Assembly (NCBI GenBank): GCA_947567625.1
Contig: CANONN010000010.1
Span: 1-64,000, forward strand
Source: an uncultured Roseburia sp.
GTDB lineage: Bacteria; Bacillota; Clostridia; Lachnospirales; Lachnospiraceae
Length of the DNA stretch: 64,000 nucleotides
Reading direction: 5' to 3'
The notes beneath the pieces were generated by a model. That model was not told the DNA's origin. It was given only the letters and a program-made list of their open reading frames with translations, and did not search any database. Both the position numbers and the translations under genes were made by a program. This document shows positions 6,485 to 18,357 of this stretch, piece after piece. The first letter of the stretch is position 1. Each line of letters opens with the position of its first letter.

Positions 6485-7294
6485 TTAGCGACAATCGCTT
6501 TCATTGCCCGCACAGCCGTGCTTATTCTCCCCGCAGTGATGTTCCCCGCAGGCGTGCTCATGGCCGTGATGGTCACAGTGCACGTTAGGGTCATAACCCA
6601 GTTTTCCTGCCAGATAGGCATCAACCGCTTCATCCGCCGGCCCGGTAACGCCGCCGTATAAGCGAATCCCTGCGTCTAAAAGCGCCGCCTTGGCGCCGCC
6701 GCCGATGCCGCCGCAGATCAGTATTTCGACGCCGGCCTGTGACAGAAAACCGGATAACGTGCCATGTCCCTGGCCGTTGGTATCGGCAATCTGTGTTTTG
6801 ACAATCTGTCCATCCAAAACGTCATAGAACTTAAATTGTTCCGTATGTCCAAAATGCTGGAATACTGTTCCGTTTTCATAAGTTACTGCTATTCTCATTT
6901 GCCCCGCTTCCTTTCTGTACATACTTGGTCTCGTATGATCTTTGACTTTGCCGGCGGTTCGATCTGCCTTCTTGCAGTTCCTATTACAGCATAAGAGCGC
7001 TGTCCCATCGCATAGCTGATAGTGGCCGCCCGAAATAGACAGATTTTTTCCATTGACAATGCTGTCCGCAAGCTTATAACGGGCCGTTTCATAGATTTCC
7101 GTCACCGTTGTGCGGGAAATCCCCATCTGGCCTGCACACTGTTCATGGGTGTATTTTTCCAGATCAATCAGGCGTACTGCCTCATATTCATCCAGCGTCA
7201 TGATAACATCTTTCCCGGCCGGTAATCCGTCCGGCCGGAAACTGTCGTATTCCGGTTCTGCGCATATTTTTCTGCATCTGGTTGGCCGTGCCAT
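6485..7294 (-). CDS. DUF134 HTH protein fused to a NifX/NifB-like cofactor-binding domain
   Basis: Residues 1 to about 90 are a DUF134 domain: MARPTRCRKIC start, then a helix-turn-helix in LDEYEAVRLIDLEKYTHEQ...MGISRTTVTEIYETARYKLAD. From about residue 133 there is a dinitrogenase iron-molybdenum cofactor (NifX-type) domain, MRIAVTYENGTVFQHFGH...ICGGIGGGAKAALL. The last ~25 residues are rich in His and Cys (CDHHGHEH, CGEHHC), a likely metal-binding tail. I chose the ATG at 7294 because AGGAGG lies six bases upstream and DUF134 proteins begin MARP; an in-frame ATG ten codons earlier lacks this. Such fusions are common in clostridia and are thought to sense or carry Fe-S or metal cofactors; the target is unknown. 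Confidence 0.85.
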   Translation of the reverse strand: MARPTRCRKICAEPEYDSFRPDGLPAGKDVIMTLDEYEAVRLIDLEKYTHEQCAGQMGISRTTVTEIYETARYKLADSIVNGKNLSISGGHYQLCDGTALLCCNRNCKKADRTAGKVKDHTRPSMYRKEAGQMRIAVTYENGTVFQHFGHTEQFKFYDVLDGQIVKTQIADTNGQGHGTLSGFLSQAGVEILICGGIGGGAKAALLDAGIRLYGGVTGPADEAVDAYLAGKLGYDPNVHCDHHGHEHACGEHHCGENKHGCAGNESDCR

Positions 7295-7336
7295 CGGTTT
7301 CCTCCTGCCTGTCGTTTCCGCCATATGTCGATAACT

Positions 7337-7365: not shown

Positions 7366-7421
7366 GCTGTTTCTCAAATCAAAATGGGAATGATGGATAG
7401 GAGCTATTTTTGCGCAAAAAA

Positions 7422-7447
7422 ATTCGTAGAACTGCTGCTTCTACGAA
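7422..7447 (+). repeat. Left inverted repeat / recombination site (IRL)
   Basis: A 26-bp sequence that is the exact reverse complement of 8888-8913. Internally it is two 9-bp inverted arms (TTCGTAGAA and TTCTACGAA) around an asymmetric 7-bp spacer CTGCTGC. Two recombinase-binding arms around a short asymmetric crossover region is the usual core-site architecture of tyrosine recombinases. Confidence 0.85.
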
Positions 7448-7484
7448 AGGTCTGCTGATACAAAAATGTAAGATTGATGTGATT

Positions 7485-7513
7485 ATTTTAGCGCGAATGA
7501 AATGATTTTTCAA
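7485..7513 (-). promoter_or_regulatory. Outward-facing sigma-A promoter inside the invertible segment
   Basis: On the minus strand: TTGAAA (7513-7508), 17 bp, TAAAAT (7490-7485). In the present orientation it reads left across the left inverted repeat toward the DUF134-NifX gene. After inversion it would read right across the right inverted repeat into the Tad operon. Confidence 0.6.
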
Positions 7514-7529
7514 TAGATTTTGAAAAAAA

Positions 7530-7558
7530 TGTTAAAAAATGACAGAAATTGTTATGAT
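7530..7558 (+). promoter_or_regulatory. Possible promoter of the recombinase gene
   Basis: TGTTAA, 17 bp, TATGAT with a preceding TGT (extended -10 form). The -35 is weak. It is 60 bp upstream of the recombinase ATG and lies within the invertible segment, so the recombinase would stay expressed in both orientations. Confidence 0.4.
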
Positions 7559-7618
7559 GATGGGCGGAGTTCATCTATTTATGGTCAATTTTTTGGTCAA
7601 TCAAAAGGAGGAATTGGT

Positions 7619-8740
7619 ATGCCAAGAAGGGGAGAAAACATTTATAAGCGCAGAGACGGAAGATGGGAGGCGCGCTATCTGGCAAAGCGGAACGAGGACG
7701 GCAGAGCCGTCTACCGTTCCGTTTATGCAAACACCTACCTGGAGGTGAAAGAAAAACGCGAGATAGCCAGACAGTCAGTGGGCAGCGAAGAGAAAAAGGA
7801 AACGGGCTATCGTTTTTCGTATGTGCTGGACAAATGGCTGGCGTACAACAGCGGATGTTTGAAAAAGCAGACAATCGCGAAGTACAGGCATTGTATCGAA
7901 AAGCACATTTTGCCGGAACTGGGAGAGATTGCGGTCGAAGAGCTCTGTGCAGATACGATCAATCAATTTTATTGCCATAAGTTAGAGCATGGGGGAAAGG
8001 ACGGCTGCGAGCTTTCGAGGAATTATGTCCGCACCATGTCGATTATTATATCTTCTGCGCTGCAATATGCGGTCAGCGAGGGCTGGCGGGAGCCGCTGCG
8101 CGGACAAATCCTGCGGCCCAAAATCGAGAACAAAAAAATTCATGTCATGAGCCGCAAAGAGCAGATGCAGTTAGAAAACATGCTGGGAAATCGGCCGTCG
8201 GGCGCGGCGCTTGCTGTCTATATCAGCCTTCACGCGGGTCTGCGCATCGGCGAGATCTGCGCGCTTAGGTGGAATGACATTGATTTTGCGGAGGGGCTTA
8301 TGTATGTCAACAGTTCCGTGGTGCGCATTAACGAAGAGCATCATGTGATATTAAAAGTTGACGCGCCTAAGAGCGAGACTTCCATGCGTGTGATTCCGCT
8401 GTCAGAGCATCTGCTTGATGTGTTGAAAGAGGAGCGCAGACATGCAAGTTCGGTTTATGTCGTGGCGGGCGTCAGGCAGAAAGAATTTATGAATCCGCGG
8501 ACGCTCGAAAACCGGTATAAAAAAATATTGCGGCAAAGCGGTTTGGAGGATATGACCTTTCACACACTTCGCCATACGTTTGCCACCCGGTGTGTCGAGA
8601 GCGGTATGGACACCAAATCTTTGAGTGAGATTCTCGGACACTCCAAAGTCAATATTACCCTGGACACATATGTACATTCATCCCTGGAGTTAAAGCGCAA
8701 TGCCGTTAAGCGTCTGGATGATATGCTTTTCTGGAGTTAA
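7619..8740 (+). CDS. Tyrosine recombinase (integrase/invertase family)
   Basis: The 373-residue protein has an N-terminal AP2-like arm-binding region (RRDGRWEARY), a SAM-like core-binding domain (residues ~60-160) and a complete catalytic domain: R209 in AGLRIGEICALRW, a Lys in APKSETSMRVIPL, H315 and R318 in HTLRHTF, H341 in LGHSKV, and nucleophile Y351 in TLDTYVH. I chose ATG 7619, which has AGGAGG seven bases upstream; an in-frame start at 7520 adds 33 residues without family similarity. There is no excisionase, phage or conjugation gene nearby. Inverted copies of a recombination core flank the gene, so it probably inverts its own segment instead of integrating an element. Confidence 0.9.
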   Translation: MPRRGENIYKRRDGRWEARYLAKRNEDGRAVYRSVYANTYLEVKEKREIARQSVGSEEKKETGYRFSYVLDKWLAYNSGCLKKQTIAKYRHCIEKHILPELGEIAVEELCADTINQFYCHKLEHGGKDGCELSRNYVRTMSIIISSALQYAVSEGWREPLRGQILRPKIENKKIHVMSRKEQMQLENMLGNRPSGAALAVYISLHAGLRIGEICALRWNDIDFAEGLMYVNSSVVRINEEHHVILKVDAPKSETSMRVIPLSEHLLDVLKEERRHASSVYVVAGVRQKEFMNPRTLENRYKKILRQSGLEDMTFHTLRHTFATRCVESGMDTKSLSEILGHSKVNITLDTYVHSSLELKRNAVKRLDDMLFWS

Positions 8741-8887
8741 AACGCGAAAGCGCAATGCCATATCACCACCGGGAGGATTTTTCCTGAGATGAAAGCAGGC
8801 GATGTGCGGTGCTTTTGGGACATTTCTGGTCAAAAATCTGGCAGGGAGAGCACGGGTCTGCCGGAACAAGGGCAGGGAAACGGTTGA

Positions 8888-8913
8888 TTCGTAGAAGCAG
8901 CAGTTCTACGAAT
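8888..8913 (-). repeat. Right inverted repeat / recombination site (IRR)
   Basis: Exact reverse complement of 7422-7447: arms TTCGTAGAA and TTCTACGAA with spacer GCAGCAG. It lies 58 bp before the first codon of the Tad operon. The 147 bp between the recombinase stop and this repeat hold no gene and no convincing promoter. Confidence 0.85.
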
Positions 8914-8970
8914 CGAACGGCGGCTTTTCAAAATATTTAAGACCAAAGATGCCTGTGATGGAGACGACAT

Positions 8971-10035
8971 ATGAAAATACATCTTGCGTTGTTAGAAAAC
9001 GATAAATCATATCTCAACCGCATTATTTCCGTTTTCAATACAAAATATGCGGATAAATTGGAAATCTACTCCTTTACCGAAAAGCAGACGGCGCTTTCTG
9101 CCTTGCGTGCGTATCGAATCGATGTATTGCTGGCGGGGGAATCTTTTGATATCGAACGGGAAGAAGTTCCGCCGCGGTGCGGTTTTGCCTATCTGGTGGA
9201 TACCGCGGATATCGAGTCTGTGCGCGGGGAAGCGGCTCTGTGTAAGTTTCAGAAAGCGGAATTGATCTATAAGCAGATCTTGAGTATTTTTTCCGACAAG
9301 ACGTCGGCGATCACCGGGGTTGGTTCGGAACATGCGCAGGGGGGAAAAGTGATTGCCTTTTTTTCCGTGTCCGGCGGTACCGGTTGTTCGACCGCGGCCG
9401 CGGCCGGCGCAATATTTCTGGCGAGAAAAGGGAAAAAGGTGCTCTATCTCAACCTCGAGACATTCGGCAATCCGGATCTGTTCTTTCAGGGAGAAGGGCA
9501 CGGGACGTTTGAAGATATTATCTATGCGGTGAAGAGCAAAAAGAGCAATCTTTATCTGAAGCTGGAGAGCGTGGTCAGACGGGATGAGACGGGGGTCTTT
9601 TTCTTCTCAAAGACGCCGGTTGCCCTGGATATGAATGAATTAAAAGAAGAAGAAATCCGGCGGATTGTGGCGGAGGCGCGTACCTCGTGCGAATACGAAT
9701 ATATTATACTCGACATGGCATTTTCTTTTCAGAAAGAACGGCTGGGGCAGTTTTGCGAGTGCAGCCAGGTCGTGATGGTTTCGGATGGTTCCGTGATTTC
9801 AAATAATAAGGCGGAGCGCATGTTAGAAGCGCTGGAAATCATGGAACGGCAGCAGGATAAAAATCTTTTGGGGCGGCTTTGCATATTGTATAACCGTTTT
9901 AGCAGCCATACCTCCGAGAAGTTTAAAAACCGGGATATTCATGAAATCGGCGGTATAAAGCGCTATGAAGGATATGAAATCAAAGATCTGTTGCAGGAAT
10001 TATCGAGGCTCCCGGTTTTTGACAGCATTATTTGA
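8971..10035 (+). CDS. tadZ: TadZ/CpaE-like pilus-localising ATPase
   Basis: The 354-residue protein has an atypical receiver-like N-terminal domain (about 1-105, without a clear phospho-acceptor) and a ParA/MinD-type domain beginning GKVIAFFSVSGGTGCST near residue 127. In ParA-like proteins the second Walker A lysine sits where this protein has cysteine (GGTGCST), as in many TadZ proteins with weakened ATPase activity. The later YIILDMAF corresponds to the Walker B/A' region. TadZ marks the polar site where the Tad secretion machine assembles. It is the first gene of the Tad operon, beginning 58 bp from the right recombination site, with GGAG before its ATG. Confidence 0.8.
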   Translation: MKIHLALLENDKSYLNRIISVFNTKYADKLEIYSFTEKQTALSALRAYRIDVLLAGESFDIEREEVPPRCGFAYLVDTADIESVRGEAALCKFQKAELIYKQILSIFSDKTSAITGVGSEHAQGGKVIAFFSVSGGTGCSTAAAAGAIFLARKGKKVLYLNLETFGNPDLFFQGEGHGTFEDIIYAVKSKKSNLYLKLESVVRRDETGVFFFSKTPVALDMNELKEEEIRRIVAEARTSCEYEYIILDMAFSFQKERLGQFCECSQVVMVSDGSVISNNKAERMLEALEIMERQQDKNLLGRLCILYNRFSSHTSEKFKNRDIHEIGGIKRYEGYEIKDLLQELSRLPVFDSII

Positions 10036-10075: not shown

Positions 10076-11314
10076 TTGCATTTTGAGGAAGAACAAAAGA
10101 TTATAGAAGAGATTAAGAAATATGTTACCGAAAACCTGCCGCTTAGGCAGCTTTCCGACGAACAGCTCGAGGAAAACGTGAAAGAAATAACGGAGCGCCA
10201 TCTTACAGGTCAGTATGTGCCGGTCACGCAAAAAGTCTCGATCGCGGAACAGGTGTACAGTAGTATCCGCGGGTTCGGGCTGTTGGACGTGATCATCAAA
10301 GATGAGACGATCACCGAGGTTATGATTAACGGGCCAAAGCACATCTTTATCGAGCAAAACGGACGGTTGTCCCGTCTGGAGAGACAGTTTGAGAGCAAAG
10401 AGCGCCTTGAGGATATTATACAAAGAATCGTCGGCCTGGCGGGGCGGGAGGTCAATCAGGCCAATCCGATCTGCGATACGAGGCTGCCAGACGGGTCTCG
10501 TGTCAATGTGGTGCTGCCCCCGATCGCCCTGTGCGGGCCGACGCTCACTATCCGCAAGTTTTCCAAAACGCCGATGACGATTGAAAAGCTGATACAATAC
10601 GGTTCCATCACGAAAGAGATCGCCGATCAATTGGAGGTGCTTGTCCGGGCAAAATACAATATTTTTATCAGCGGCGGTACAGGGTCGGGAAAAACGACAT
10701 TTTTAAATGCATTGTCCAACTATATCCCCGGCGACGAGCGCGTCATAACAATCGAGGATTCGGCGGAGCTTCAGATTGTCGGCGTGCAGAACCTGGTGAG
10801 CCTGGAGACGCGAAACGCCAATGCCTCCGGCGCGGGACAAATCACGATACGCGATCTCATCAAGTCTTCGCTGCGTATGCGGCCGGAGCGCATTGTGGTC
10901 GGGGAAGTCCGCGGCGGGGAGGCGCTTGATATGCTGCAGGCTATGAATACCGGGCATGACGGCTCGCTCTCCACCGGACATGCAAATTCGACGCAGGATA
11001 TGCTAAGCCGCTTGGAGACAATGGTACTGCAGGGCGCCCCCGGGCTTCCGCTGGAGGCGATCCGGCAGCAGATTGCCTCGGCAGTCGATATTATCATACA
11101 TCTCTCCAGACTGCGCGACAAAACGAGAAAGACCATGGAGATCACGGAGGTGGTAGAGTATCGGGACGGGAAGATTGTGCTAAACCCGCTGTACCGGTTT
11201 GAGGAGAGCGAGGAGAGCAGCTTGACAAAGGTGGTCGGCAGTTTGCGAAGAACAAAAAATCCGCTGCAAAACGATTTTAAGCTGCGTCTGGCAGGTTATC
11301 GTGGAGAGATATGA
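10076..11314 (+). CDS. tadA: TadA/CpaF secretion ATPase
   Basis: The 412-residue type II/IV secretion ATPase has an N-terminal domain ending in TEVMINGPKHIFIEQNGRL, the Walker A motif SGGTGSGKTT near residue 200, the Asp box around ITIEDSAELQ, Walker B in RIVVGEVRGGEALDML, and the His box GHDGSLSTGHANS. It powers Flp pilin extrusion as a cytoplasmic hexamer working with TadB/TadC. The start is TTG at 10076 with GGGAGG seven bases upstream; the nearby ATG at 10070 runs straight into a stop codon. It lies 40 bp after tadZ. Confidence 0.95.
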   Translation: MHFEEEQKIIEEIKKYVTENLPLRQLSDEQLEENVKEITERHLTGQYVPVTQKVSIAEQVYSSIRGFGLLDVIIKDETITEVMINGPKHIFIEQNGRLSRLERQFESKERLEDIIQRIVGLAGREVNQANPICDTRLPDGSRVNVVLPPIALCGPTLTIRKFSKTPMTIEKLIQYGSITKEIADQLEVLVRAKYNIFISGGTGSGKTTFLNALSNYIPGDERVITIEDSAELQIVGVQNLVSLETRNANASGAGQITIRDLIKSSLRMRPERIVVGEVRGGEALDMLQAMNTGHDGSLSTGHANSTQDMLSRLETMVLQGAPGLPLEAIRQQIASAVDIIIHLSRLRDKTRKTMEITEVVEYRDGKIVLNPLYRFEESEESSLTKVVGSLRRTKNPLQNDFKLRLAGYRGEI

Positions 11315-11495
11315 CAGAAAAGTTGCGTTTGACAAGCGGCCGAGCAAGAAAGCAGCCGTACAGAGCCAAGGGATGACGACAAGCGGCTGGTCAAAAAGGT
11401 GTGGCTAAAATAATGGACACCGTCTATAGATTTAGCAGAGAAAGGTATGGTTTAAGAATATGACAGGCGAGGAAACAACACAGGAGAGCGAGCGC

Positions 11496-12401
11496 ATGAA
11501 GACGCTAAAAAAAGGGCAGCAACACAGCGAACAGCAGCGAAAAAGCGATAAGATGCAAAGCAGTGAAAAGCGGCAAAAAGAAAAGATGCGAAGAAGAGAA
11601 AAGAAAGGGAGCAACGAGAAGAAACAAAAAGAAGTGTATGTCCCGATTGCAGGATTAATCGGCGGGGCCACTGATTATCATGTGTATGATATGCAGTGGA
11701 ACGATCGCTTGATCGCGGCTCTGATCGGATTTGGCGCTGCGTTTATCGTCATTTATGTTTTTTTTCGTGCGATTCCTGTGGGAATCTTGGCCGGCGTGTG
11801 CTGCATCGTCCCGGCGCAGAAGCTTTACCGCGATTATAAGATAAAAAAGAGGCAGCAAAATCTGCTGTTGCAGTTTAAAGATCTGCTCGAATCCCTGGCA
11901 GCTTCGTACTCCGCAGGGCAAAATACGATGGGTGCGTTCGGTGACGCAAAAACCGATATGATCTCGATTTATGGGGAGGACGCGGATATTGTCCGCGAGG
12001 TGGAGATGATCGCGGGAGGCATGTTAAATAATATGACGATCGAGGCGCTGCTTGATAATTTCGCCAAGCGCAGCGGCCTTGCGGACGCAGAGAGCTTTGC
12101 CAACGTGTTTGAGGTGGCGAACCGGCAGGGCAGCAATCTAAATCGTGTGATTGCGGAGAGCCGTGAGATGATTAACGATAAGATCGAGATCGAGATGGAG
12201 ATTGCGACGATGCTGCAGGGCAATAAGAACGAGCTCAACGTCATGGCGTTGATGCCGATCGTGATTTTCCCGTGCTTAAACGGCCTGGGCGGGGAGACGA
12301 CGGCCAATACGCCTGTAAATGTGGTGGTAAAAATCGTCTGTATTGCCATTTTTGTGGGAGCTTATTTCCTGGGCAGAAAGCTGGTAGACATAAAAGTGTA
12401 G
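11496..12401 (+). CDS. tadB: TadB-like inner-membrane platform protein
   Basis: About 301 residues. A very charged, Lys/Gln-rich N-terminal tail (~45 residues) is followed by two membrane segments (LIAALIGFGAAFIVIYVFF and IPVGILAGVCCIVPA), a type II secretion F domain (FKDLLESLAASYSAGQNTMGAF...), and C-terminal membrane helices. TadB and TadC form the platform that TadA engages. I prefer ATG 11496, with AGGAG nine bases upstream, over the in-frame ATG at 11460, whose nearest RBS is 14 bases away. The 181 bp upstream of it hold no recognisable gene. Confidence 0.85.
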   Translation: MKTLKKGQQHSEQQRKSDKMQSSEKRQKEKMRRREKKGSNEKKQKEVYVPIAGLIGGATDYHVYDMQWNDRLIAALIGFGAAFIVIYVFFRAIPVGILAGVCCIVPAQKLYRDYKIKKRQQNLLLQFKDLLESLAASYSAGQNTMGAFGDAKTDMISIYGEDADIVREVEMIAGGMLNNMTIEALLDNFAKRSGLADAESFANVFEVANRQGSNLNRVIAESREMINDKIEIEMEIATMLQGNKNELNVMALMPIVIFPCLNGLGGETTANTPVNVVVKIVCIAIFVGAYFLGRKLVDIKV

Positions 12402-12414
12402 AGGGAGGAAGAAG

Positions 12415-13269
12415 ATGCAGTATATGATCATGTCGTTGGCGACGCTTGCCGTGCTTGGCTGGTTTGCATTGTGTGTCAAATACAAAGATGGCTTTGACGC
12501 AGTGATTGCCAGTATAGATGAAGAGAGTTACCGGATGCCGGAATTGTTTTTTGCAGGATTTGGCATCATGGATTTGATTCATTTCGACCTGAGTTCCCGC
12601 AAGGCCAGAAAGCGGATTCATGAGATTGCGGAGATTTACGGAAAGAAATATGCCCAGTATCATTACTATGTGACAAAAGGCGGCGAGTTTACTTATGGTT
12701 ATCTGGCATTTTCGCTGATGAGTCTTTTGGCGGCGCTGGCCGGGAGAATCGAATTGCTTATGGCAGGAATTATATTGGTCGTGCTGGTGGTCGTGCATTT
12801 GGAACAGGATTTGGACAGTAAGCTTTCCGACAGAAGGGACGAGCTGCTGTCGGAATTTCCGCAGGTACTCTCAAAGCTGGCGTTGCTTGTCAATTCCGGT
12901 ATGGTTATGCGGGAGGCGTGGGAGAAAGTGGCGGACGCCGGCGAGGGCGTAATCTATCAGGAGATGAGGACGGCTGTACAGGAATTCCACAATGGGTTAT
13001 CGGAGCTTGAGGTGTACCGCAATTTTGCGGAGCGCTGCGGGTTAAAGGAAATCAGGCGGTTTTCCTCGACGATGATACAAAATCTCCAGAAAGGCAACGC
13101 ACAGATCGCATATTTCCTGCGCGAGATGTCGGATGAGATGTGGGAGGAGAAAAAGCACCTCGCTAAGCGCAAGGGAGAGGCGATCAATTCCAAGCTGATG
13201 CTGCCGACCGGCCTGATTTTTATCGGGATTCTGGTGATGGTGATGGTCCCGGCGTTTACGGCCATGTAG
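12415..13269 (+). CDS. tadC: TadC-like inner-membrane platform protein
   Basis: 284 residues: an N-terminal membrane helix, a soluble stretch, a hydrophobic pair (about residues 96-125), then a type II secretion F domain (DELLSEFPQVLSKLALLVNSGMVMREAWEKV...) and a final helix LIFIGILVMVMVPAFTAM. It partners TadB in the pilus platform. GGGAGG precedes the ATG, which is 13 bp after tadB, so the two are co-translated neighbours. Confidence 0.88.
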   Translation: MQYMIMSLATLAVLGWFALCVKYKDGFDAVIASIDEESYRMPELFFAGFGIMDLIHFDLSSRKARKRIHEIAEIYGKKYAQYHYYVTKGGEFTYGYLAFSLMSLLAALAGRIELLMAGIILVVLVVVHLEQDLDSKLSDRRDELLSEFPQVLSKLALLVNSGMVMREAWEKVADAGEGVIYQEMRTAVQEFHNGLSELEVYRNFAERCGLKEIRRFSSTMIQNLQKGNAQIAYFLREMSDEMWEEKKHLAKRKGEAINSKLMLPTGLIFIGILVMVMVPAFTAM

Positions 13270-13322
13270 GGTTATAATTCATGCAGATGATTATAATAAA
13301 AAAACAATGGAGGTACATAGGT

Positions 13323-13589
13323 ATGAAAAAGGTAGAACAAAAGGCAATGGAGTGGTATGTGAAAGGAAAATGCAGGCTCTTGGGGTTAAAGGACCGTTTT
13401 TTGCATGAGGAAAAAGGAGCCAATACCATGGTGGAAATTGTGGTGGTGATCGCGCTGGTTGTCGTCGTAGCCGGCATTTTCAGGGAGCAGTTGATGGCTG
13501 TGGTTACCTCTGCATTTCAACAGGTGACAGAATTTATTGGAGGCGATGGCGGCGATGCGGGAGGCGTCGCAGGTCTGATCGGACGGTAA
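13323..13589 (+). CDS. flp: Flp1-type pilin
   Basis: The 88-residue protein has a basic leader, the prepilin motif EEKGANTMVE, a hydrophobic assembly helix (IVVVIALVVVVAGIF) and a short Gly/Asp-rich tail, the pattern of Flp1/type IVb pilins. It should be cleaved by the TadV peptidase encoded 4 kb downstream, near the G-A of KGANTMVE, leaving Glu at or near position +5 of the mature pilin. ATG 13323 has GGAGG nine bases upstream; an in-frame ATG at 13281 would add a non-conserved 14-residue extension. Confidence 0.85.
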   Translation: MKKVEQKAMEWYVKGKCRLLGLKDRFLHEEKGANTMVEIVVVIALVVVVAGIFREQLMAVVTSAFQQVTEFIGGDGGDAGGVAGLIGR

Positions 13590-13600
13590 GGAGAGAGAGC

Positions 13601-14323
13601 TTGAGACAACAAACACAGCGCGGCGCGGTCATGGTGGAGGCGGCGATCTATTTTCCCATCGTCATTGGCGTCGCAGTGACCATGATTTATATGGGGCTCT
13701 TCCAGATGCAGGAGAGCGCCTTGGGATATGTGGCGGAGCGCATTGTCACGGAGGCCGCGCGCGAGGAAGCCTATCCGGGGTATTCTGTTTTTGGCATGAA
13801 TGAAGGTCGTGCCGTGGATTTTGCCTGGAGCGGGAACACACCGGCACGATCGGACGTGGAAACGCACTACAGGGAGCGGCACCGCACGCCGGGAAGGCTG
13901 TACCGGGAATTCGGGCAGATTGCGTCGCGCTTTGGCCTAAGCGGCGGCAGGGAGAGCTATTATGAGACAAAATATGCAGCCGCCACAGCCGGCATTACGA
14001 TGATCAGCGCAGGTACCATAAAGACGCCGGAGGTAGCGTTTGATATGGGATTCTTTTCATCTAAGGTGACGGTAAAAATCAGGCACACCTTTGAGGTTCC
14101 CGGCATCATCCGCTATCTGGGCATAGAGGACGAACAATTTACCCTGACGACGACCGCCACAAAAAATATTGTCAATCCCAGCGAGTTTGTGCGCAACACG
14201 GACCTGGCGTGGGATGCGACCAATTATTTGATGGAAAAACTGGGACTGGAAAAAAAGTTTCAGTCGTTCGTGAGCAAGACAGGGGATATCATAGAAAAAA
14301 TATTGAATCCGGGGGCATGGTAA
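13601..14323 (+). CDS. TadE-like pseudopilin
   Basis: The 240-residue protein begins RQQTQRGAVMVEAAIYFPIV, the TadE motif with conserved Glu and an N-terminal membrane helix, followed by an extracytoplasmic domain. It starts at TTG 13601, supported by AAGGAG seven bases upstream. TadE/F proteins are minor pseudopilins processed by TadV. It lies 11 bp after the pilin gene. Confidence 0.8.
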   Translation: MRQQTQRGAVMVEAAIYFPIVIGVAVTMIYMGLFQMQESALGYVAERIVTEAAREEAYPGYSVFGMNEGRAVDFAWSGNTPARSDVETHYRERHRTPGRLYREFGQIASRFGLSGGRESYYETKYAAATAGITMISAGTIKTPEVAFDMGFFSSKVTVKIRHTFEVPGIIRYLGIEDEQFTLTTTATKNIVNPSEFVRNTDLAWDATNYLMEKLGLEKKFQSFVSKTGDIIEKILNPGAW

Positions 14324-14376
14324 GTGAAAAATGTGTCCGTTTTTAAATGGACGCTGCCGGTAGAATGGAGCAAAAG

Positions 14377-17055
14377 ATGAGAGCATGTGGTCGCCACCGC
14401 GGCGCAATTTCTGTATTTTTAACGTTGATACTACTGCCCACTGTCGTGTTTGGCGGCCTTGTGACAGACGCGGTAAGGGTGTATCAGGCCAAAGGGCTGA
14501 TTTCGGAGGCGGGAGAGCTGGCGATGAACGCCGGGCTCTCCTATTATGACGGTGCGCTTAAAAATGCGTACGGATTACTGGCATTGGAAAAAATGCCGGA
14601 GGATTTGGATATCGAGCAATATTTTGTCAATACCCTGCGCGCCTCCGGTTTGGAGGGGGCAAAAGACGTCAAGAGTATGATGGACTTACAGGTAGAAGGC
14701 GGCAGTTTCCAGGTCTACGGTGTCGACGGCTCTAAGATATATGAGACGGAAGCCGAGAAGATGCAGATTTTAGAATATATGAAATACCGGGCGCCGGTCT
14801 GCATCGGGGAACAATTGTTAGAAAAGCTGGGGCAGATCAAAAATTCCAAAAAACAGGTGGAGGTCATAGACGCGCAGCTGGATTTTTCGGATTCTCTGGA
14901 TGACTTGCAGGAGGCTTGCGAGAAAGCGAAGGAGGCGCTCGATTCCTACTGTGATCTGCTCGAGGAGGAACCGGCTCTGACGAGGCAGACGCTGGAAGCT
15001 GAATTTGTATACCTGCAAAGTGAATTGCGGGAGGCGGCGACCTGGATATTCGTGCTCGATGTGATCGATCATGATACCACCGCCGATCATGAGGACGACT
15101 TTATCGCATCAATGGAAAATTTTAACTCCGCGGCGCAGTATCTGCCACTGGAGAGTGAGCTGCCATTTATGTCGGGAGCGGATTTTGCGGCAGCGCTTGC
15201 GGATTATATGAGCTGTGCGTCGAGCATGGCCGGTATTTTGGAAAAAATAGCGCCCTCTAATGATATTGGCGCTGCGGTGGCAAATAGAATCAGCATGGTG
15301 GATGAGGATGAGCAAGAGCAGATCGAAAATATCTACAGCGAATGTATAGAGCTGAATGCGAGATTTTCGGCATTTTATTTTGTGCTTCAGGATAAGGCTG
15401 AAGAAAAATTAAAGGCCGCCTGGGAACATTTGCCCTGGTGGGTAGAGCGCTTGGGATTTGTAATGGAGCAGATCGATAAGGCGTCCCAGTGTCTGGATGA
15501 TTTGAATCAGAAACTTGCGATAGCGCAGGAAAAACATAAGACATGGACGGATAAGGTCGGTGAGCTGCCGGATGGCGGCGGAGAGTTTAAAAGTACCATG
15601 ACAAGCGAGGCCGACGAGACAAAAGATTTACTGGATGAACAAAAGCTTCTGGCATTAAAACAGAAGCTGGCGGACAGCAGAGCGCTATGGGCACAGATGA
15701 GAGGAGAGTTATTGGCAACGTCGTTTTGTCAGCAATCTCTTGGCAGGGAATATGACTACAATTGTTACCCTGCGGCCAGACAGGCGGTGCGAAACTGGCA
15801 TTTGACGAATACACGGTATAACCTGCTGCGGGAGGCAAGCGACGCGGCAATAGATTTCGTGGGGGACGGGAGCCATATCGACACTTATTATCGCGGGCAG
15901 CTTCCGGCCAATATGCCGCCGTCTGTCCGGGACGACGAATTTTATAAAAAGCTCCAGGAAATATGCAGGGAAAAGCGTCCCAAAGACGAGAAATACCACA
16001 ATTATAAAGAGGATACCAACAACTGGCTGAAGAAATTAGGCACATCGGTGACGGGCGACGGGATAAACGGCCTGGCTGATATTGACTGGGACGAAAAACC
16101 CCTGCCGAGCACAGTGCTCAGCCAGTCGGGCGCGGATGCGGAATCTGATTATGATGACCAGAACGATATCAACTGCGAGAAAAAGAATGAACGCAAAAAG
16201 GCAGTCAAAAACGCGAGAAAATCGATCGATTCGGTTGGAAAGTTTTTGACGACGCTCTCGGAGCTGACGGAGGAAGCGATCGAAAATCTCTATCTCACGG
16301 CATATGGCATAGAGATGTTTTCTTATTATACGGTGGATAAAGAACAGACGGAATACGACGGAGAAGTGACGCAACGCGCCGAAGTGAAATCATTGAGCGG
16401 CGATGATCTGACCAAGCATAAGCTCTACCGCTCGGAAGTCGAATATATGCTTTGGGGGCAGAAGAATGTGCAGGAGAATGTCAAAAACACCAGGCTGCTG
16501 CTCTACGGGGTGCGGCTGGTATTTAACATGATCTATGCGTTTAGCGACAGCCAGGTGAGTCTCATGAGCGAAACGATGGCGGCGGCGCTCTCCTGCGGCG
16601 TGGCGTTTTTGATTCCGATTTTTAAAGCGGTTATTAAGGTAGGAATTGCGATCGCGGAGACGGCGCTTGACGTCACAGACCTGATGGCGGGCAAACACGT
16701 CGGGCTGCTGAAGGATAAATATACCAGGCAGGTGGAGGTGCCCGGCTTTTTGACGCGCACCAATCTGGCCGGGAAGAAGCCGATTACGATGAATTACCGG
16801 GAATATCTGACTCTGTTTTTATTGATAAAAACGTTTGGTTCGCTCGAAGCCAAGACACTCGCGCGGATTGCGGACTGTATTCAGTTAAATACCGAGCTGG
16901 ATATCACGCAGTCTTATACCATGCTGGCCGTCTGCGCCAAGGTGAACGTGCGCACGGCCTTTATGAAAAAGGTATCGGCCCTGCCCGACGGCGGCGGTGG
17001 CGGCGCGGTGAGCGGCGAATATACGGTCACATTTAAGAGCGCACTGGGTTATTGA
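14377..17055 (+). CDS. DUF5702-type Tad-locus surface protein
   Basis: 892 residues. The N-terminus, GAISVFLTLILLPTVVFGG, is a TadG-like membrane helix; a long coiled, acidic extracytoplasmic region follows, with a hydrophobic stretch near residues 725-755 (MAAALSCGVAFLIPIFKAV). This matches the DUF5702 proteins found in clostridial Tad loci, probably minor pilus or assembly components. ATG 14377 has GGAG six bases upstream and places RACGRHRGAISV at the start; the in-frame ATGs at 14347 and 14365 lack a good RBS. Its stop overlaps the RBS of the next gene. Confidence 0.8.
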   Translation: MRACGRHRGAISVFLTLILLPTVVFGGLVTDAVRVYQAKGLISEAGELAMNAGLSYYDGALKNAYGLLALEKMPEDLDIEQYFVNTLRASGLEGAKDVKSMMDLQVEGGSFQVYGVDGSKIYETEAEKMQILEYMKYRAPVCIGEQLLEKLGQIKNSKKQVEVIDAQLDFSDSLDDLQEACEKAKEALDSYCDLLEEEPALTRQTLEAEFVYLQSELREAATWIFVLDVIDHDTTADHEDDFIASMENFNSAAQYLPLESELPFMSGADFAAALADYMSCASSMAGILEKIAPSNDIGAAVANRISMVDEDEQEQIENIYSECIELNARFSAFYFVLQDKAEEKLKAAWEHLPWWVERLGFVMEQIDKASQCLDDLNQKLAIAQEKHKTWTDKVGELPDGGGEFKSTMTSEADETKDLLDEQKLLALKQKLADSRALWAQMRGELLATSFCQQSLGREYDYNCYPAARQAVRNWHLTNTRYNLLREASDAAIDFVGDGSHIDTYYRGQLPANMPPSVRDDEFYKKLQEICREKRPKDEKYHNYKEDTNNWLKKLGTSVTGDGINGLADIDWDEKPLPSTVLSQSGADAESDYDDQNDINCEKKNERKKAVKNARKSIDSVGKFLTTLSELTEEAIENLYLTAYGIEMFSYYTVDKEQTEYDGEVTQRAEVKSLSGDDLTKHKLYRSEVEYMLWGQKNVQENVKNTRLLLYGVRLVFNMIYAFSDSQVSLMSETMAAALSCGVAFLIPIFKAVIKVGIAIAETALDVTDLMAGKHVGLLKDKYTRQVEVPGFLTRTNLAGKKPITMNYREYLTLFLLIKTFGSLEAKTLARIADCIQLNTELDITQSYTMLAVCAKVNVRTAFMKKVSALPDGGGGGAVSGEYTVTFKSALGY

Positions 17056-17066
17056 AGGAGGGACAG

Positions 17067-17798
17067 ATGAAAAAGGAGAAGCAGAGGGGTTCTCTGACCG
17101 TGGAGGCGGCATTGTTTCTGGTTTTATTTTTGGCGGCATTTCTGACGCTGTTAAATTTTGCACGGACTGCGCGGGTACAGGTTGTCATGCAGCATGCGAT
17201 CAACAGCAGCGCCATGCAGATTTCCCAGTACGGATATATTCTGTCAAAGACGGGGGTGATCGGTCATATGGGAGCGGCGGCCGATCTCGCGGGAGCGACG
17301 AGAGAGGATGTGGGCAAAATCGTGAGCGCGGCCAATCAGTTTGCCGGGGCCGTGGAGAACGTGGGCACCGGAACAATCGACGACGCCACGATTCAGACGA
17401 TCGCGGATGCGGCTTTGGGTCAGGGGGAGATGGGGGAGGCAGCAGGGATTGCGGAGAATTACTTTAAGGAGCCCAAAGGACTTTTGACCGGCCTGGCTTC
17501 GATTGCCGTCTCCGGCCTGACGGACCGCGCCAATACGTTTGTCATCGGCAAGATTGCCAAGGCGCAGGTGGAATCTTACTTAGAGGAGATTACGGACGAC
17601 CCCGACGAATATTTAAAAGGCATCGGCATTGTGGACGGGCTGTCCGGTCTCAGATTTGAACAGTCCAAGCTGACGACGGCGGGAAACAGCAAAGATCTGG
17701 ATATCACGGTCCGCTTTAAAGTAAAAAACCAGATGTTTCCCATGCTGGATTTTGGAGAGCATGAGATGTGTATCAACGCGTCGACAAGACTTTGGTGA
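17067..17798 (+). CDS. TadE/TadF-like pseudopilin
   Basis: The 243-residue protein begins MKKEKQRGSLTVEAALFLVLFLAAFL, a TadE-type processing motif (GSLTVE) and membrane helix. The mature part contains AINSSAMQISQYGY, typical of this group. Start is ATG 17067, with AAGGAGGG just upstream. It is likely a third TadV substrate of the operon; exact role unknown. Confidence 0.78.
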   Translation: MKKEKQRGSLTVEAALFLVLFLAAFLTLLNFARTARVQVVMQHAINSSAMQISQYGYILSKTGVIGHMGAAADLAGATREDVGKIVSAANQFAGAVENVGTGTIDDATIQTIADAALGQGEMGEAAGIAENYFKEPKGLLTGLASIAVSGLTDRANTFVIGKIAKAQVESYLEEITDDPDEYLKGIGIVDGLSGLRFEQSKLTTAGNSKDLDITVRFKVKNQMFPMLDFGEHEMCINASTRLW

Positions 17799-17811
17799 AT
17801 GGGAGAATACA

Positions 17812-18357
17812 ATGCCAAACATAAAACATAAAATACTGCTCGCGGCGCTGTTTGTTTTTACCGTAAGTTTTCCGTTTGTCGCATATGTACTGCAGTTTGG
17901 GCCTGTCAAGATCGTGCGCAGCTATGTGCTGGTGTACGCGCTGTATGTGCTTTCTGGGATAGACTTGGAGACGAAAACGGTGCCCAACCGCATCTTACTG
18001 GTATTGCTTGGCGTCAGAATCATCCTGTTTGTGCCGGAGGCAGTCTTATATCCTGGGTATCTGGGCAATTTTGTGTTTGCGTCCGCCGCGGGCGCACTGC
18101 TTAGTATGGCGGTCTTAGCGGCCGGCAATCTGATCTGTAAGCACGGAATGGGCATGGGGGATATCAAGCTGTTTGGAGTGGCAGGATGCTATGTGGGCAT
18201 GGGCGGAGTTATCGTTATCATGTTCTTTTCGCTCTTTTTTGCGGCCCTTTGCAGCGGGGTTTTGCTGCTGCGCAAAAGGCTTCGCGCAAAAGATGAGATA
18301 CCGTTTGTGCCATTTATCTTTGCCGGCACGATTGTGACATTTTTGTTGGGAATTTAG
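17812..18357 (+). CDS. tadV: TadV/CpaA-like A24 prepilin peptidase
   Basis: The 181-residue polytopic protein carries the two aspartates of A24 peptidases: D in SGIDLETKTVPN and the GxGD motif GMGMGDIKLFG. Six hydrophobic stretches fit the family. It should cleave the Flp1 pilin and TadE-like leaders at the membrane's cytoplasmic face. Start is ATG 17812 (GGGAG six bases upstream). Its TAG stop codon is the first triplet of a family B repeat. Confidence 0.88.
   Translation: MPNIKHKILLAALFVFTVSFPFVAYVLQFGPVKIVRSYVLVYALYVLSGIDLETKTVPNRILLVLLGVRIILFVPEAVLYPGYLGNFVFASAAGALLSMAVLAAGNLICKHGMGMGDIKLFGVAGCYVGMGGVIVIMFFSLFFAALCSGVLLLRKRLRAKDEIPFVPFIFAGTIVTFLLGI

Follow-up and report, generated by a model that had tools for sequence, protein, structure and literature searches.

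A cassette with its own recombinase and a predicted outward promoter probably switches a clostridial Tad pilus operon by DNA inversion

Ahead of the tad genes in the 64-kb stretch of DNA analysed here (hereafter the window), a recombinase gene lies between two inverted copies of a short sequence, which raises the question of whether this arrangement controls the pilus operon and, if so, in which orientation the operon is transcribed. An earlier note on this DNA had described perfect 26-bp inverted repeats with 9-bp arms and an asymmetric 7-nt spacer, enclosing an intact tyrosine recombinase as the sole gene. The repeat search of the window confirmed the repeats, and a 373-aa ORF was the only clear gene inside (Table 1). 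The left and right sites are 26 nt long, are 100% complementary as inverted repeats and have 1440 nt in between; both follow the architecture TTCGTAGAA-N7-TTCTACGAA, with the spacers CTGCTGC and GCAGCAG. Allowing up to three mismatches, 0.02 site-like matches were expected by chance in the window, where two perfect ones are present, and at the same tolerance a third copy was absent from the window's own genome (3.42 Mb, 110 contigs, 93% complete). The segment is bounded by inverted repeats, as a promoter-inversion switch requires, and the sites are not the direct att-type repeats that would go with the integrase of an integrative element. As judged from sequence, this cassette of about 1.5 kb, which encodes an enzyme for its own inversion and has a predicted outward promoter, probably turns the pilus operon behind it on and off by flipping.

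Table 1. Features of the cassette, its surroundings and the TnpB-like genes found beside related cassettes. Coordinates without a locus code refer to the window.
Feature	Coordinates	Strand	Basis or remark
DUF134/dinitrogenase-cofactor-like gene	6485..7324	-	Flanking gene; points away from the cassette
Left-site hairpin with T7 outside	7416..7447	-	Terminator-like; hairpin -10 kcal/mol
Left recombination site	7422..7447		TTCGTAGAA-CTGCTGC-TTCTACGAA plus one base
Predicted outward promoter, TTGAAA-17-TAAAAT	7485..7513	-	37 nt inside the left site; z 2.3
Tyrosine recombinase, 373 aa	7619..8740	+	ATG start, AAAGGAGG ribosome site upstream
Recombinase stop to tadZ	8741..8970	+	No promoter toward tadZ (z -0.47), no terminator-like site
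Right recombination site	8888..8913		Perfect inverted copy of the left site
tadZ, first gene of the target operon	8971..10035	+	PF21194 (Pfam)
tadA, secretion ATPase	10076..11314	+	T2SSE (Pfam)
tadB and tadC	11460..13269	+	tadC T2SSF (Pfam); tadB named from position, without Pfam match
flp prepilin	13281..13589	+	PF16982 (Pfam)
tadE/tadG-like genes	13601..17798	+	Named from position; two of three scanned, both without Pfam match
Prepilin peptidase	17752..18357	+	Peptidase_A24 (Pfam)
TnpB/Cas12f-like genes	L037:1524-2897, L100:6289-7710, L180:8618-9970, L185:5682-7040, L151:5908-7176		TNB domain

The end of the right repeat (8913) and the ATG of tadZ (8971) are 57 nt apart. Pfam matches to TadZ, TadA, TadC, Flp prepilin and the A24 peptidase are all present, as in a Tad (type IVc) pilus locus, and judging by strand and gaps the tad genes form one operon; those of the tadB and tadE/G-like genes that were scanned gave no Pfam match, and other tad operons have homologues of these genes arranged in this order. 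At another place in the window's genome (G000:C83:8743-9924) there is a further homologue of tadA (53%). On the other flank we do not think that the DUF134 gene is the target of the cassette; a homologue (65%) of that gene was seen near another cassette, in genome G083 (L096:9136-9921), where the target differs. The recombinase of the window matches Phage_integrase (E 1e-29, Pfam), that is, the tyrosine and not the serine family, and R209, H315, R318, H341 and Y351, which we take to be its catalytic positions, were invariant in 14 aligned recombinases, that of the window included. The ORF list begins the gene at a TTG (7520), a less likely start than the ATG at 7619, and no clear candidate for the recombinase's own promoter was found.

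Genomes with a homologue of the recombinase (32-47% identity) numbered 19 of 63 in the genus (E 1e-45) and 48 of 392 in a sample of the order (E 1e-55), the window's own genome being counted in both; judged by gene content, the group is taken to be Clostridia. Inverted repeats with a score of at least 16 enclosed 79 of the 115 recombinase genes (111 loci, the window among them), while 36 were not enclosed at this score, some of them truncated by contig ends. When only genes with adequate flanks were considered, inverted repeats at this score were found in 75 of 102 and direct repeats in 14; some direct-repeat matches are expected, since the sites are near-palindromic. Mismatched flank pairs (n=502) gave inverted repeats at the score threshold in 1.2%. 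Removal of six near-duplicate cassettes left 73, of which 47 had site pairs differing at 0 or 1 positions and 68 had identical spacers within the pair, as against 0.6% of comparisons between different cassettes. Mismatches within pairs fell at 96 of 1152 arm positions and at 1 of 448 spacer positions, a contrast that is somewhat inflated because the repeat search seeds on matching words and so favours the centre. None of the 49 well-formed spacers was palindromic, and of 13 genomes carrying two or more cassettes, 11 had spacers that were all different. Viral contigs supplied 78 loci, of which 30 were examined; in 15 of these (L229, L230, L233-L245), with more distant integrases, no enclosing repeat scored above 11, which indicates that enclosure is not general to such integrases, and five loci with closer ones (L216, L217, L219, L220, L222) likewise lacked such a repeat.

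Some arrangements within the family were unusual. In L174 (5635-9518), and also in L038 and L156, the cassette lies between long inverted copies of flanking sequence, and the flanking genes of L174 are 41% identical to each other, suggesting a promoter that alternates between two versions of a gene. Loci L106 and L107 represent a near-identical cassette-bearing stretch in two genomes of different genus codes, which suggests recent transfer. The 15.8-kb exact inverted duplication that holds L135 and L136 in a single contig (G277:C1) is probably an assembly artefact.

Promoters were predicted by weighted consensus scores, and z values are relative to dinucleotide shuffles. These predictions gave the family a sigma-A-type promoter (TTGACA-17-TATAAT-like) that diverges from the recombinase gene and reads outward through the upstream site, which mostly lies 170-250 nt from the recombinase. 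The outward score exceeded the inward score in 69/69 scored cassettes, with mean z values of 3.75 and 0.32, respectively; an outward z of at least 2 was reached in 63 of them and an exact TTGACA was present in 46, at a median distance to the site of 34 nt. Sixteen previously unused cassettes from plasmids and viral contigs gave mean z values of 3.54 outward and 0.01 inward, two of them having an outward z below 1 and one (L226) an inward score of 3.8 that exceeded the outward 3.5. The outward signal upstream of recombinases without enclosing repeats was weaker (mean z 1.9, n=32). In the window itself the predicted outward promoter falls below the family mean (z 2.3 vs 3.75) and the best inward site has a z of 0.0. 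A simple promoter scan of the window returned three promoter-like sites against 2.8 in shuffles, which is not above chance, and a simple terminator scan returned two terminator-like sites against 1.8, so that these sites taken alone are not above chance either; they include a plus-strand site at 7559-7575, within the recombinase leader. Since the simple scans do not exceed the shuffles, the case for the promoter and for its polarity rests on the cassette family.

On the fixed side, between recombinase and target, the mean promoter z was 0.09 in 25 of the 30 target-facing cassettes. Where the fetched stretch of a tad operon contained no recombinase, z values of at least 2 toward tadZ were seen in 6/6 cases and then in 7 of 16 more, that is, in 13 of the 22 cassette-free operons scanned; the 16 further operons had a mean z of 1.9 toward tadZ and of 0.0 on the opposite strand, where 0/16 reached 2. 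With nine of these 16 below z 2, the absence of a fixed promoter carries less weight than it seemed to on the first six operons. An insulating T-run was tried as a general feature of the cassettes and rejected, the two sides being alike in the 30 target-facing cassettes (Wilcoxon p 0.48); an asymmetry stood out only in 22 cassettes with outward genes on both sides (11 vs 1).

The outward promoter, together with the lack of a promoter on the fixed side, suggests that a target is ON when the recombinase points away from it and OFF when the recombinase faces it. As the predicted promoter of the window diverges from a recombinase that faces tadZ, the orientation seen here is predicted to be OFF. 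The recombinase would pair the two inverted sites and exchange strands within their identical 7-nt spacers, thereby inverting the 1.44 kb of DNA in which it is itself encoded. With the recombinase pointing away from tadZ, the predicted promoter near its 5' end, which reads outward and away from it, would transcribe the tad operon; adding the distances puts its minus-10 box some 120 nt away from the start of tadZ in that orientation. With the recombinase toward tadZ, as in the window, the promoter would fire leftward into the site hairpin and T7, which would stop it before the DUF134 gene, and the tad genes, lacking a recognizable promoter of their own, would be silent apart from leakage. The cassette-specific spacer would keep several switches in one genome from recombining together. 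We consider it quite likely that the locus is such a self-contained promoter-inversion switch, with the polarity and the present OFF state given above.

Among the 73 de-duplicated cassettes the recombinase faced the target in 30 and pointed away from it in six; 25 had outward genes on both sides, 10 were cut or not assessable and two had no outward gene. By gene direction alone the window was counted among the 25, and its tad genes were taken as the target for what they encode. Opposite orientations were found at an operon encoding a helicase-associated domain, where the recombinase points away in L099 and faces the operon in L040, L047 and L161, with site-to-gene distances of 40 nt in L099 and 36-45 nt in the others. 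Nucleotide matches place target and recombinase on opposite relative strands in L099 as compared with L040, L047 and L161, and L103 agrees with the latter set by protein only. The cassettes of L037 and L100 are likewise oppositely oriented at a TnpB-like gene. The orthologous cassette sets compared showed no difference in orientation, the copies on Enterococcus raffinosus plasmids agreed in orientation at each of three loci (4, 3 and 2 strain records), and two identical pairs among the 30 of 78 viral-contig loci examined showed no flips. The comparison of related genomes proposed in the earlier note turned up both orientations at homologous operons and a single one within orthologous sets and strains. 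As homologous operons differ between species while orthologous sets and strains do not, inversion appears, from these sequence comparisons, to occur on the scale of species, and the uniformity of the orthologous sets and E. raffinosus copies indicates that many lineages may invert the segment seldom or have it locked. For the window locus, a second copy was absent from its own genome and the exact site pattern from the viral contigs, and a search of named genomes for a close orthologue returned two distant integrases only. Enrichment of cassettes at contig ends (9 of 74 on contigs of at least 20 kb vs 1.41 expected; 16 of 114 vs 10.56 over all contigs) was considered as a sign of mixed orientations and set aside as weak, since it could reflect repeats; contigs C12 and C16 of G396 overlap in one orientation.

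The same observations can be read in other ways. The polarity could be the opposite, the operon being ON as seen, by read-through from a promoter before the recombinase, and OFF when flipped. This would fit the lack of a terminator-like site between recombinase and tadZ, the predominance of the facing orientation (30 vs 6) and an extended minus-10-like TGTTATGAT at 7550-7558 that was spotted by eye. However, the inward scores lie near background in both sets of cassettes while the outward ones are strong, the best inward site of the window does not rise above its shuffles, and the terminator-like site in the recombinase leader, itself not above chance, would stand in the path of such read-through; we therefore regard the opposite polarity as unlikely.

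Alternatively, the switch may once have been functional and inversion may have ended, leaving the tad genes silent or weakly expressed. The single orientation in orthologous sets and Enterococcus strains, and the five Tad-head cassettes that all face their operon, are what such a relic would leave behind, but its sites are perfect across 26 bp, its reading frame is intact with the motif residues invariant, spacer matching in the family is near perfect and homologous operons show opposite orientations, so that we give this reading little credence. That the cassette is a small mobile element or integrase remnant, its repeats being the ends used in transposition or excision and its placement due to chance, seems to us very improbable. 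The closest solved structures to the recombinase are indeed transposon-type Int proteins (E 3e-28), presumably Tn1549 Int, and one cassette lies inside a near-identical stretch of at least 10 kb common to G410 and G430. Against this, the sites are inverted and not direct, most pairs differ at one position at most, cassettes with an outward promoter are found repeatedly at operon heads, and enclosure is not general, as the distant viral-contig integrases show. The promoter-inversion switch remains the reading that we prefer.

Cassettes of the family head Tad operons at five loci, in genomes that span three coded families (f1, f11 and f5): the window, L034 (G026), L153 (G321), L160 (G275) and L187 (G305), and in 5/5 the recombinase faces the operon. 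The cassette of L034 precedes FHA, phosphatase and kinase genes, which are followed by tadZ; in L153 and L160 the first gene is judged tadZ-like from Pfam matches that are weak or close to threshold and from the tadA, tadB and tadC genes that follow it. In L187 the contig ends inside the recombinase, leaving one site visible, and the last 60 bases of that contig end appear to us to resemble Illumina adapter sequence. The association is uncommon, given that tadA was found in 190 of the 392 genomes of the order and a recombinase homologue upstream at one (L187) of 20 tadA places fetched, several of which were truncated by contig ends. A quick maximum-likelihood tree was built from 105 recombinases, including four that are Tad-linked and leaving out L187. 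The four scored members fall in three places, and their grouping in a single clade was rejected (p-AU 1.2e-5). On this tree the Tad label must change at least three times, and not every change has to be a gain; this fits repeated recruitment of cassettes to Tad operons, as read from the sequences, and does not prove three gains.

Targets of other kinds were also found. A chemoreceptor signalling domain was present in 10 of 64 first downstream genes (duplicates included), the target of L128 is an EssC type VII ATPase, and that of L113 has an adenylation domain by a match below the curated cut-off. Type VII secretion (EssC) operons headed by cassettes were noted at L128:2792-7366 and, with homologous first genes, in L135 and L147. 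TnpB-like genes are the targets of L037, L100, L180, L185 and L151; these TnpB/Cas12f-like genes with a TNB domain adjoin cassettes in five genomes and in both orientations, and possibly represent phase-variable RNA-guided regulators. The recombinase family extends, with repeats, to megaplasmids of E. raffinosus; on an E. gilvus megaplasmid the recombinase stands beside WxL-domain genes, with a repeat score of only 12, and further members are found on plasmids of E. faecalis, Vescimonas and Ruminococcus albus. We favour, with some reservation, the view that these cassettes form a large and portable 'plug-in' family of phase switches, in which a unit of about 1.2-1.6 kb combines a recombinase, a promoter directed outward and a pair of sites that the spacer makes private to it. 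Such units would have been recruited, in Clostridia and on Enterococcus plasmids, to positions ahead of genes for Tad pili, chemoreceptors, type VII secretion, polysaccharides, peptide-synthetase-like proteins and TnpB-like proteins, the 7-nt spacer serving as an address that separates the switches of one genome, and promoter duty at Tad operons would have been taken over more than once.

In Salmonella, Hin is a serine recombinase and a promoter in its segment drives a surface-appendage operon outside, and in E. coli the fim promoter is inverted by a tyrosine recombinase before an adhesive-appendage operon. Like the H segment of Hin, the cassette of the window has its recombinase gene inside the inverted segment and a promoter predicted to drive an appendage operon outside; unlike it, the cassette has a tyrosine recombinase, 9-7-9 sites and a divergent promoter at the recombinase 5' end. 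With fim it shares a tyrosine recombinase and, as predicted, promoter inversion ahead of an adhesive-appendage operon, whereas its recombinase lies inside the segment and not outside a promoter-only element, and the pilus type is different. The proposal of a fim-type phase switch for this Tad pilus is therefore supported as far as an invertible switch ahead of the tad genes is concerned, and not supported as fim-type in the strict sense, as the recombinase is inside the segment; the predicted promoter and the ON/OFF polarity go beyond the earlier note. The C. difficile RecV switches, as far as the descriptions at hand go, resemble the proposed switch in combining a tyrosine recombinase, DNA inversion and surface genes, and differ in that RecV acts at several genomic sites while the window has one recombinase and one site pair.

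In the portion of the literature available to us, the hin gene is placed within its invertible segment, the fim element is given as 296 bp with a promoter only, and Clostridia inversions are described as often lying near signalling and chemotaxis genes (PMC5903667). The same portion describes a putative 844-bp invertible segment of Providencia stuartii that, like the cassette, is a larger segment enclosing a recombinase gene near a fimbrial locus; by that description it differs in having imperfect 14-bp repeats and the fimbrial locus of another phylum (PMC5903667). A clostridial inverton group (139) has been linked to a tyrosine recombinase (invertase group 35) and changes orientation in culture; in the excerpts consulted it resembles the cassette in its recombinase and inverted repeats, which are 26 bp by coordinates in one example, and differs, by description, in that two examples with coordinates span about 205-230 bp, too short for a recombinase (PMC11892184). 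From the parts of these two reports that were available, the inversion switch is established as a principle; its use at a Tad target, the layout with a divergent promoter and a family of this breadth were not found in the literature searched, and no report of Tad pilus phase variation by DNA inversion was among the matches listed, which covered few subscription papers or preprints.

If the switch operates as proposed, some clostridial Tad, chemoreceptor and secretion operons would be governed by a two-state switch, set mostly to OFF in assembled genomes, and the state of the switch would be readable directly from long-read data. Self-contained cassettes with differing spacers would serve as ready-made genetic toggles. 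Tad pili are adhesion organelles, and in the window the orientation of one such cassette would set whether their operon is transcribed.
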